Assembly (NCBI RefSeq): GCF_034661235.1
Contig: NZ_CP141059.1
Span: forward strand, 744,001-808,000
DNA: 64,000 nucleotides
Direction of reading: 5' to 3'
DNA from: Nocardioides bizhenqiangii
Lineage (GTDB): Bacteria > Actinomycetota > Actinomycetes > Propionibacteriales > Nocardioidaceae
The translations under genes were made by a program, and so were the position numbers. The notes beneath the pieces are model-generated. The model was not told the origin of the DNA, searched no databases, and was given only the letters and a program-made list of their open reading frames with translations. This document shows positions 40,618 to 44,576 of the stretch, piece after piece. The number at the start of each line of letters is the position of its first letter. Positions within the stretch are counted from its first letter, which is position 1.

Positions 40618-41384
40618 CGGGCGTCACCCACGAAGTCGTAAGGCGCCAGCGGACCGAGCAACCGCAACCGGATCCGCTCGTGCACGGCCTCGGCGTAGGA
40701 CTCGAGCGCCTCCTCGAGCTCCGCACGGCGCTCGTCGTCCACCAGGAGCGCGACCTCGACCACGTGGTCGAGGCCGGTGCCCCGCACCTCGCGGTGCTCC
40801 ACGGCGTACGGCAGCACGAGGTCGAGCAGGTCGGCGGCGTCGTCGTGGCGACGCCGGTCCACGGCCTGCGCCACCAGCTCGCCGAGGCGCATCCGCTCCG
40901 CCCACGACGCCTGCTCCGGCACGCCGCGGGTGCGGTCGTTGAGGTCGCGGATCACCGGGTCGTCGGCAACCACCTCGGCCAGGACCGCCTCCTCGACGTA
41001 ACGCGCGCGCAGCGTGAGCTGGCTGCGGCCCTCCAGTGCGTCCAGCAGGGCGACCAGCTCGTCACTGCGGCGCAGCAGGCCGTCGATCACGCCCTGCTCG
41101 TCGGGGAGTGCGGAACCGAACCGCACCGGCACCACCGGGCCTTCCACCGCGAGGCGGTCGAGGACCTGGTGGTACGCCGTCAGGTCGGCCTTCCGCATCA
41201 CCGACTCCTCGACGTCGACCTCGCCGACCACTGCCATGACGTCGCCGTGGACGACGGCCGTGATCGGGTTGCCGGCCACGCCCTTCATCCGCGGGAGGTC
41301 AGCATCGGCCCGGGCCACGCCGTACACGAACAGCGCCGACGTCGCGGGGGCCTCAGTGTGAGCATCACGACCGGTCACGGTCAC
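40608..41384 (-). CDS. gvpF: Gas vesicle protein GvpF (GvpF/GvpL family)
   Basis: A 258-residue GvpF/L protein. SALFVYGVARADADLPRMKG, AVVGEVDVEESVMRKADLTA and EGPVVPVRFGSALPDEQGV are the diagnostic N-terminal segments; LRARYVEEAVLAEVV and the C-terminal LRLLGPLAPYDFV complete the family pattern. GvpF contacts GvpA and sits at the growing vesicle. It starts with GTG overlapping the gvpA stop (GTGA), so tight coupling to the structural gene is likely. Confidence 0.9.
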   Translation of the reverse strand: MTVTGRDAHTEAPATSALFVYGVARADADLPRMKGVAGNPITAVVHGDVMAVVGEVDVEESVMRKADLTAYHQVLDRLAVEGPVVPVRFGSALPDEQGVIDGLLRRSDELVALLDALEGRSQLTLRARYVEEAVLAEVVADDPVIRDLNDRTRGVPEQASWAERMRLGELVAQAVDRRRHDDAADLLDLVLPYAVEHREVRGTGLDHVVEVALLVDDERRAELEEALESYAEAVHERIRLRLLGPLAPYDFVGDARWG

Positions 41385-41830
41385 GACCTGCTCCTCGAGC
41401 TACGACGCGAGGAGCTGCGACTCCTGCTCTCCTTCTCCTTCTCCTTGTCGTCATCGTCATCGTCGTCGTCGTCCTTGTCGCTGCTGCCCGGCGTGAGCGC
41501 CTCCTTGACGCCGCCGAGGGCGCCCTTCGTCTTCTTCTTGGCGCCGCCCTCGCGCAGGTCGTCCAGCACGGCGGGGAGGTCCTTGCCTTCCGCCGTCCCG
41601 AGGTCGAGACGGTTCGTCGCCTCCGCGAAGCGCAGGTAGGTGTCCACGCTCGCGATGACGATGCGGGCGTCGATGGTGAGCAGCTCGATGCCGACCAGGG
41701 AGACCCGGACGTAGGCGTCGATCACGATTCCCTTGTCGAGGATCACCTCGACTACATCGGCGAGGCCACTGGGGGCCGGCCGCTCCAGGTAACCGCCGCC
41801 CTGGCGGCGGCTCGTGGTCTGAACGGTCAT
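41381..41830 (-). CDS. gvpA: Major gas vesicle protein GvpA with charged C-terminal tail
   Basis: A 149-residue GvpA. The shell-forming core at about 20-78 is close to consensus: SGLADVVEVILDKGIVIDAY, VRVSLVGIELLTIDARIVIA and SVDTYLRFAEATNRL. The first 18 residues and the last 70 are extra. The tail begins LPAVLDDLREGGAKKKTKG and then has a run of nine Asp, a KEKEKE block and an SR-rich end (SRSRSSSRRSSRSRS). Standard GvpA is 70-75 residues; actinobacterial forms are often longer, but this block-charged end is striking. Its ATG overlaps the upstream gene stop (ATGA). Confidence 0.92.
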   Translation of the reverse strand: MTVQTTSRRQGGGYLERPAPSGLADVVEVILDKGIVIDAYVRVSLVGIELLTIDARIVIASVDTYLRFAEATNRLDLGTAEGKDLPAVLDDLREGGAKKKTKGALGGVKEALTPGSSDKDDDDDDDDDKEKEKESRSRSSSRRSSRSRS

Positions 41831-43458: not shown

Positions 43459-43463
43459 CTTCA

Positions 43464-44576
43464 TCACCCCTTCGAGGATGCGGTTGCGCGCGAGGACGAG
43501 CCCGACCCGGACTGAGAGCTGCTGCTCTTCTTGGCCGGTGCCTTCTTGGCCGGTGACTTCTTGGCCGCGGCCCTGTTGGCCGGTGCCTTCCTGGCAGCGG
43601 TCTTCTTGGCCGCTGCTTTCTTGGCGGCGGTCTTCTTGGCCGGTGCCTTCTTGGCCGGTGCCTTCTTGGCCGGTGCTTTCTTGGCAGCGGTCTTCTTGGC
43701 TGGGGGGGTCGACTTCTTGGCCGGGGTCGACTTCTTGCTCGCGCTGCTGGATCCACTGGAGGTGGACTTCTTGGCCGGGGTCGACTTCTTCGTCGATCCG
43801 TTGGAGCCGCTAGTCGAGCTGCTGGACCCGCTGGACCGGCTCGAGGTGGACTTCTTCGCCGGGGCGGACTTCTTGGTCGATCCGCTGGAGCCGCCGCTGG
43901 AGCCGCCGCTGGAGCCGCCGCTGGAGCCGCCGCTGGAGCCGCCGCTGGAGCCGCCGCTGGAGCCGCCGCTGGAGCCGCCGCTGGAGCCGCCGCTGGAGCC
44001 GCCGCTGGAGCCACCGCTGGAGCTCGACCTCGTTGCCGCGGCCGACTTCCTGGTCGATCCGCTGGAGCCGCCGGACCTACTGGACCGGCTCGAGCTCGAC
44101 CGGCTCGAGCTGGACTTCTTCGCCGGTCTCGACTTCTTGGTCGAGCCGTTCGAGTCGCTGCTGGAGCTGCTCGCAGACCTTCTCGAGGAGCTCGACTTCT
44201 TGCGCGGCTCGCTGCCCGACGACGACCTCTTCTGCGCCGAGCGGGAGCTGCTCCCAGTCTTCTTCTTCTTCGAGCTGCTGCGCTCGTCGGAGTTGTCGTC
44301 CTCGTTGGCCGGTCCGCCGACGTCCCCCAGCCTCTGGGTGACGGCCTCCACGCGGGAGGCGGCGGTGGCGAGAGCGAGTTCCTTGGCTGCGCCGGTCAAC
44401 CGCTGGCGCAGTTCGGGGCTGCTGCCGGCGATCTTGCTCGCGAGCGCCTTCGGGTCGCCTGCGAACTTCTTGCCGGCCAACATGCCGGCAAGGGTGAGCG
44501 CGAGCCTCATCTTCTTAGTGCGTCCCAGCAGGTATCCGCCGGCGACGCCGGCTGTGATTTTCGTGGTTGCAGACAT
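43464..44576 (-). CDS. First gene of gas vesicle operon: GvpY-like protein with basic Ser/Lys tail
   Basis: A 370-residue protein. Residues 1-95 carry a short conserved region (ITAGVAGGYLLGRTKKMRLA, LTLAGMLAGKKFAGDP, LRQRLTGAAKELALATAASR) matching the small protein that begins many actinobacterial gvp operons (GvpY; sometimes mislabelled DNA primase). Residues 100-370 are low complexity: SSRS and KKSS blocks, a run of SGGS units encoded by a 12-bp DNA repeat, then histone H1-like PAKK and AAKK units. The tail is strongly basic. The start is uncertain: ATG 44576 fits the family, while ATG 44600 follows GGAGGGG closely. The next gene starts 5 bp after its stop. Confidence 0.7.
   Translation of the reverse strand: MSATTKITAGVAGGYLLGRTKKMRLALTLAGMLAGKKFAGDPKALASKIAGSSPELRQRLTGAAKELALATAASRVEAVTQRLGDVGGPANEDDNSDERSSSKKKKTGSSSRSAQKRSSSGSEPRKKSSSSRRSASSSSSDSNGSTKKSRPAKKSSSSRSSSSRSSRSGGSSGSTRKSAAATRSSSSGGSSGGSSGGSSGGSSGGSSGGSSGGSSGGSSGGSSGGSSGGSSGSTKKSAPAKKSTSSRSSGSSSSTSGSNGSTKKSTPAKKSTSSGSSSASKKSTPAKKSTPPAKKTAAKKAPAKKAPAKKAPAKKTAAKKAAAKKTAARKAPANRAAAKKSPAKKAPAKKSSSSQSGSGSSSRATASSKG
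43882..44025. repeat. 12-bp coding tandem repeat, about twelve copies
   Basis: CCGCTGGAGCCG repeats every 12 bp inside the GvpY-like gene and encodes Ser-Gly-Gly-Ser units on the minus strand. The copies are identical apart from the last, which has ACC for GCC, implying recent expansion and probable length variation between strains. Confidence 0.95.

Follow-up and report, generated by a model that had tools for sequence, protein, structure and literature searches.

Oppositely charged tails on neighbouring GvpY- and GvpZ-like proteins in a gas-vesicle operon of Nocardioides bizhenqiangii and its actinobacterial relatives

We examined a stretch of 64,000 nucleotides from Nocardioides bizhenqiangii (RefSeq assembly GCF_034661235.1, contig NZ_CP141059.1, positions 744,001 to 808,000 of the forward strand), referred to below as the window and used for all coordinates, which contains a gas-vesicle (gvp) operon whose first three genes encode proteins with long charged tails. 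The genes Y, Z, A, F, G, O, J, L, S and K form a single run on the minus strand, as expected of an actinobacterial gvp operon, with the names GvpY and GvpZ taken from the Streptomyces coelicolor list (PMC5839063) on the strength of position and type of gene. The tails of GvpY and GvpZ carry opposite charges, and comparison with related operons indicates that these charges covary and that opposition is retained where the signs have been exchanged. An earlier note on this DNA had described the three tails as encoded together by adjacent genes, and this is borne out by stop and start codons that overlap by a few bases at the Y/Z, Z/A and A/F junctions, so that translational coupling across these junctions is likely. 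A disorder prediction, which the same note had proposed, was made with a charge-hydropathy rule, by which the three tails fall among disordered sequences and the three cores among ordered ones.

The gvpY-like gene (43464..44576, minus strand; ATG at 44576, stop at 43464) encodes 370 amino acids, of which residues 1-95 are a conserved helical core belonging to a family that adjoins gvp-type Z in 163 operons. The polycationic tail that follows (residues 96-370; 43467..44291), estimated at about 270 residues in the earlier note, comprises 275 residues with 4 Asp/Glu, 62 Lys/Arg (46 Lys and 16 Arg codons) and 102 Ser, and has a GGSS run that precedes PAKK/AAKK units. This (GGSS)n segment is encoded by a 12-bp tandem array (43882-44023, 11.8 copies, 99% match), and part of the tail looks, from the DNA repeats, to have been recently expanded by slippage. 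The tail scored 36.9 bits against the Pfam family HC2 (PF07382; cut-off 40) and 39.6 bits against the NCBIfam model hist_H1_lk_Burk (cut-off 80), and hence falls outside HC2 as curated. For the GvpY head (residues 1-96), three helices were predicted with a pLDDT of 73 and a pTM of 0.32, a low global confidence, and sequence comparison of this head with the PDB gave no convincing relative.

The adjacent gvpZ-like gene (41827..43467, minus strand; candidate starts GTG 43467, ATG 43464 and ATG 43458) combines an SRPBCC (Polyketide_cyc) domain with an acidic tail. The domain (42697..43062) matches PF03364 with 52.2 bits (cut-off 23.4; 9.1e-14), and the gvp-type core together with the neighbouring gvpY identifies the protein as a GvpZ. 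AlphaFold models the head as an SRPBCC fold (pLDDT 86), a fold shared with the SRPBCC/START-like proteins DR_A0006 (3ggn), the nearest structure by Foldseek, and ZhuI and CoxG, which rank lower. The tail (residues 280-546; 41830..42630), previously reported as about 265 residues of nearly pure Asp/Glu, has 267 residues with 212 Asp/Glu and 2 Lys/Arg (net -210), arranged in EPEDEYD-type units that correspond to repeat arrays in the DNA. The protein is 62% identical to its top-scoring homologue, and among the best-scoring matches its nearest named relatives are mostly Nocardioides. In the 120 best homologues, the C-terminal tails beyond the core span 44-198 residues (median 130.5), and a basic end (net charge of at least +3 over the last 12 residues) occurs in 80. 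Because 119 of these 120 tails are net acidic and 114 have at least 40% Asp/Glu, the low-complexity frame is not an artefact of open reading frame calling. A few of these database entries (P0067, P0035) have R/G- or R/S-rich ends that look like acidic repeats read in a shifted frame, which could mislead automatic annotation of such tails.

The shell-protein gene gvpA (41381..41830, minus strand; 149 amino acids) belongs to the GvpA family by both PF00741 (51.5 bits, cut-off 25; 1.1e-13) and NF006872 (167 bits, cut-off 151). Its tail (41384..41473) consists, as the earlier note had read it, of nine Asp, then KEKEKE, then an SR-rich basic end, giving 12 acidic and 9 basic residues in a total of 30; the charges are segregated to a degree equalled by one in 200 shuffles. 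The tail lies within the curated model NF006872 (143 positions, matched over 10-141), a GvpA subfamily that likewise unites shell domain and charged C-terminal extension, whereas the run of nine Asp and the SR end are particular to the GvpA of the window. The two PDB matches (7r1c and 8gbs) align to residues 19-76 only. The tails of 131 GvpA proteins are uniform, with a median of 66 residues (profile boundary), 14 acidic and 13 basic.

The remainder of the operon, all on the minus strand, comprises gvpF (40608..41384; PF06386, GvpL_GvpF family, 1.8e-52), gvpG (40375..40617; PF05120), gvpO (40134..40388; PF05800), gvpJ (39755..40138; PF00741), gvpL (38998..39762; PF06386, GvpL_GvpF family), gvpS (38819..39070; PF00741) and gvpK (38529..38822; PF05121). 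The starts of gvpJ, gvpS and gvpK are inferred, and the names of the GvpA-family paralogues J and S are positional. No match to the GvpC repeats (PF01304) was detected in the genome of the window or in any control genome.

The spread of this arrangement was assessed in a pool made up of 80 named actinobacterial loci (the best 80 of 267 stretches encoding a relative in a genome contig scan), the loci of further relatives and 80 selected regions. Family profiles assigned 216 frames to Z; three below 130 bits were dropped and deduplication reduced the other 213 to 192. Seventeen of these were ordinary SRPBCC proteins and 175 were gvp-type, 163 of the latter with Y nearby, while the 29 lacking a nearby Y consisted of the 17 ordinary proteins and 12 gvp-type ones, some near contig or locus ends. 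The final set was the 163 deduplicated Y+Z operons, 73 of them from named loci. Named loci with a complete neighbourhood usually show the order Y-Z-A and then F, G, O, J, L, S and K, and charged tails are the norm across the clusters covered by the analysis. The idea that this build is peculiar to the present operon was consequently abandoned, since both layout and tails are common across actinobacterial gvp clusters. Rather, the window is extreme: among the 163 it ranks first in Y net charge (+54, profile boundary), Z net charge (-210) and Z tail length, and sixth in Y tail length. Within the genus this GvpZ is present in 22 of 215 genomes and GvpK in 23; the extra GvpK genome (G015) has a gvpK (locus L216) that stands without further gvp genes within the 11 kb surveyed.

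The net signs of the paired tails were Y positive with Z negative in 48 operons, both negative in 95, Y zero with Z negative in 11 (obtained by subtraction, in agreement with a separate tally), Y negative with Z positive in nine, and both positive in none. A plain pair of polycation and polyanion, as envisaged in the earlier note, is therefore not the rule; the usual GvpY tail has an acid block and then a basic block, an acid-before-basic order shared by all three proteins, and 74 of the 95 double-acidic operons retain a basic block on Y. Four further loci (L219-L222), outside the 163 as such, have acidic Z tails and Y tails with net charges of -18 to +2. The note had also reasoned that relatives without one tail, or tails varying independently, would speak against a joint role. 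Close relatives with complete loci keep both tails, and the number of basic residues on Y is associated with the number of acidic residues on Z, with a raw rank correlation of 0.61 and phylogenetic contrasts giving r=0.33 (p=1.6e-5; 97 in the same direction and 55 opposite). This association persists with both tail lengths in the model (t=3.0, p=0.003). Net charges of Y and Z are negatively related (contrasts, r=-0.23, p=0.0036; t=-4.5 with lengths), and removal of the nine swapped operons leaves values of 0.34 for Y basic against Z acidic and -0.22 for net against net. By comparison, the contrasts gave r=0.00 for Y acidic against Z acidic and 0.02 for Y acidic against Z basic.

All nine operons with a net-basic GvpZ tail have a GvpY at or below a net charge of -20. 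They include one Nocardioidaceae clade in which, opposite to the arrangement in the window, a histone-like AKK polycation sits on GvpZ and a polyanion on GvpY. A frameshift as the source of these basic tails, considered in view of the R-rich ends of entries such as P0067 and P0035, was rejected for the swapped clade because the tails are built of S/T/A/K units (STAKK, SASKQ) in the same open frame as the SRPBCC core and recur in many entries. Among the 120 homologues listed for the GvpZ of locus L150, 45 bear a precomputed HC2 (PF07382) label; 49 of the 120, which lack the core-end motif, were excluded from counting. Retention of opposition despite traded signs is suggestive of an interaction between the tails. 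Both modules can also occur on one protein, as in Rhodococcus koreensis (L065), whose GvpZ tail has acidic EPEDESGEYE repeats and then a PAKKAPAKK polycation.

We consider that GvpY and GvpZ may form an electrostatic scaffold at the vesicle surface, in which tails with opposite charge blocks bind each other, and give this a probability of roughly 45%. Each protein would be one half of the scaffold, with a folded head (short and helical in GvpY, SRPBCC in GvpZ) and a disordered charged tail, and the tails would bind because the pair carries opposite charge blocks. The acid-then-basic tail of GvpA, probably on the outer face of the shell, would offer this coat a hold, and vesicles or assembling Gvp proteins would be held together in a coacervate-like coat or cluster. 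The outward orientation is suggested by GvpC, which binds the shell exterior along helix alpha-2 (from an excerpt of PMC9994262), the GvpA tail coming after this helix in the sequence. In simulations with a crude bead model, the tails of the window bound each other (interchain energy over the last fifth of -129.7 kT), as did swapped tails (-51.2 kT), while one pair of like charge and one with screened charges drifted apart. These were single trajectories with charge as the sole attraction, which indicates only that charge suffices in the model; such binding is expected polyelectrolyte physics and not proof of condensation. The sequences show the tails, the gene overlaps, the distribution, the rank of the window, the covariation and the sign swap; condensation, clustering or anchoring of vesicles, Y-Z binding in cells, location on the vesicle, binding of DNA or membrane and any physiological role are inferred. 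A fuller version, in which a complex coacervate of both proteins binds the charged brush of GvpA and organizes vesicles, with selection keeping opposition of charge rather than its sign while polycation and polyanion modules traded carriers, is more tentative still.

Several observations weigh against this scaffold. Both tails are net acidic in the 95 operons counted above, with 11 more having a Y of net zero; 21 of the 95 have no basic block on Y, and seven of the 163 operons have no charge block by the thresholds used. The covariation of Y and Z charges is real but modest, and is partly shared with length: Y length is associated with Z acidic residues nearly as strongly as Y basic residues are (r=0.30), tail lengths themselves covary (r=0.23, p=0.0038), and for net charge per residue the contrasts fall short of significance (r=-0.15, p=0.064; 102 opposite and 58 same). 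Net-charge contrasts split into 74 in the same and 81 in the opposite direction (74 and 74 once the nine swapped operons are left out), so that this link rests on a few large contrasts. Basic GvpZ arose about three times, and a sign test on independent tree pairs consequently has two to three pairs and no power to reach significance. Listed homologues of the swapped type mostly confirm one clade rather than new origins. Moreover, six of the nine basic Z tails are weakly so (+6 to +10), a basic block persists on the Y tail in seven of the nine swapped operons, and slippage shapes the Y tail. Contact of either protein with the vesicle is itself something that we infer, and gas vesicles have never been found in soil-dwelling bacteria according to an excerpt of PMC5839063; Streptomyces is listed as a gas-vesicle producer in PMC9501494. 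The joint role proposed for the tails in the earlier note thus stands in part: the charges of Y and Z are non-independent and both tail pairs bind in simulation, but the effects are modest and partly due to length.

Other explanations account for parts of this pattern. The resemblance of the Y tail to HC2 and H1-like proteins, the HC2 labels on homologues of the L150 GvpZ and the preservation of one polycation per Y-Z pair across the swap could reflect anchoring to the nucleoid, whereby DNA or RNA would be bound by an H1-like polycation, carried by Y in the window and by Z in the swapped clade, this binding would be limited by the polyanion as a DNA mimic or chaperone, and the nucleoid would thereby hold vesicles or Gvp complexes. 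We regard this as unlikely, given that both H1-like scores are under curated cut-offs, that most Y tails (104 of 163) have a net acidic charge and place an acid block ahead of the basic one, a poor arrangement for DNA binding, and that covariation of basic Y with acidic Z is left unexplained. This covariation, specific to opposite charges, and the opposition maintained through the swap in nine of nine operons also argue against tails with independent roles, which we rate slightly lower. Under that explanation the acidic tail would be a brush for solubility, anti-adhesion or ion binding and the basic tail would contact membrane, cell wall or nucleic acid, with no mutual binding; it would accommodate the 95 operons with two net-acidic tails and the weak per-residue link, and for CoxG, likewise an SRPBCC protein, the title of 8uds gives a lipid-anchoring C-terminus.

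Least probable, in our estimation, is that the tails store nitrogen or arginine, or that they are low-complexity products of slippage which selection tolerates. A nitrogen-storage role has been proposed for the Gvp proteins of soil actinobacteria, with Arg, Glu and Pro making up as much as 42% of GvpA2 (excerpt of PMC5839063), and slippage arrays in the DNA together with covarying tail lengths would fit drift. However, the preponderance of Lys over Arg codons in the basic tail of the window and the Asp plus Glu composition of the acidic one are not those of an arginine store, and drift predicts neither pairing of opposite signs nor a common acid-before-basic order on three proteins.

Beyond the operon, two adjacent GAF-ANTAR proteins are encoded on the plus strand (36901-38370) just past the end of gvpK, converging on the gvp genes. 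ANTAR is an RNA-binding antiterminator domain, and a regulatory link of this pair to the operon is possible. A fatty acid desaturase gene (PF00487; 35763-36809, minus strand) adjoins the pair. On the other side, divergent from gvpY, lies a gene for a large helicase with DUF3418 (44694-48719, plus strand), which we take to be HrpA-type; about 117 bp separate the listed starts of gvpY and the helicase, the latter start being uncertain, and the gvp promoter would be expected there.

The S. coelicolor cluster gvpO-A-F-G-Y-Z-J-L-S (SCO6499-6507; excerpt of PMC5839063) contains the same kinds of genes with Y directly before Z, whereas in the window and many named loci the run opens with Y-Z, which precede A, and the tails of the window are the most one-sided of the 163. 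Our set includes loci ordered F-G-Y-Z as well as a named Streptomyces locus with Y-Z-A (L094), whose Y is found by the Y query. Serratia genes sharing the names gvpY and gvpZ (excerpt of PMC4982088) may be unrelated to those of the window. The nearest functional precedent, by analogy, would be GvpU/GvpT of Bacillus/Priestia megaterium, accessory proteins that gather vesicles, GvpU by phase transition (excerpt of PMC11445434 and the title of Li et al. 2024 cited there); in contrast, the window encodes two oppositely charged proteins plus a charged GvpA. HC2 and H1-like polycations (PF07382) share the PAKK/AAKK low-complexity composition of the window Y tail and of the swapped-clade Z tails, and differ from the window proteins, which score under the cut-offs, have gvp-specific heads and include a polyanion partner. 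In a table of PMC5839063, which also remarks on the charged composition of Gvp proteins, the product given for both GvpY and GvpZ is 'hypothetical protein', and none of the literature matches listed dealt with opposite tails or with GvpY/GvpZ in a coacervate.

What is new here is the charge complementarity of Y and Z, the Y-Z layout and charged tails being already common. The role of gas-vesicle genes in soil actinobacteria is described as an open question in excerpts of PMC4982088 and PMC5839063, and a pair that keeps its opposition through a swap of signs provides a direct and cheap handle on the function of GvpY and GvpZ, as well as a natural case of coevolving disordered tails within one operon. 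If the proposed scaffold is correct, it would represent a second way, besides GvpU, of gathering gas vesicles and would supply a ready-made coacervate pair for the engineering of acoustic reporters.
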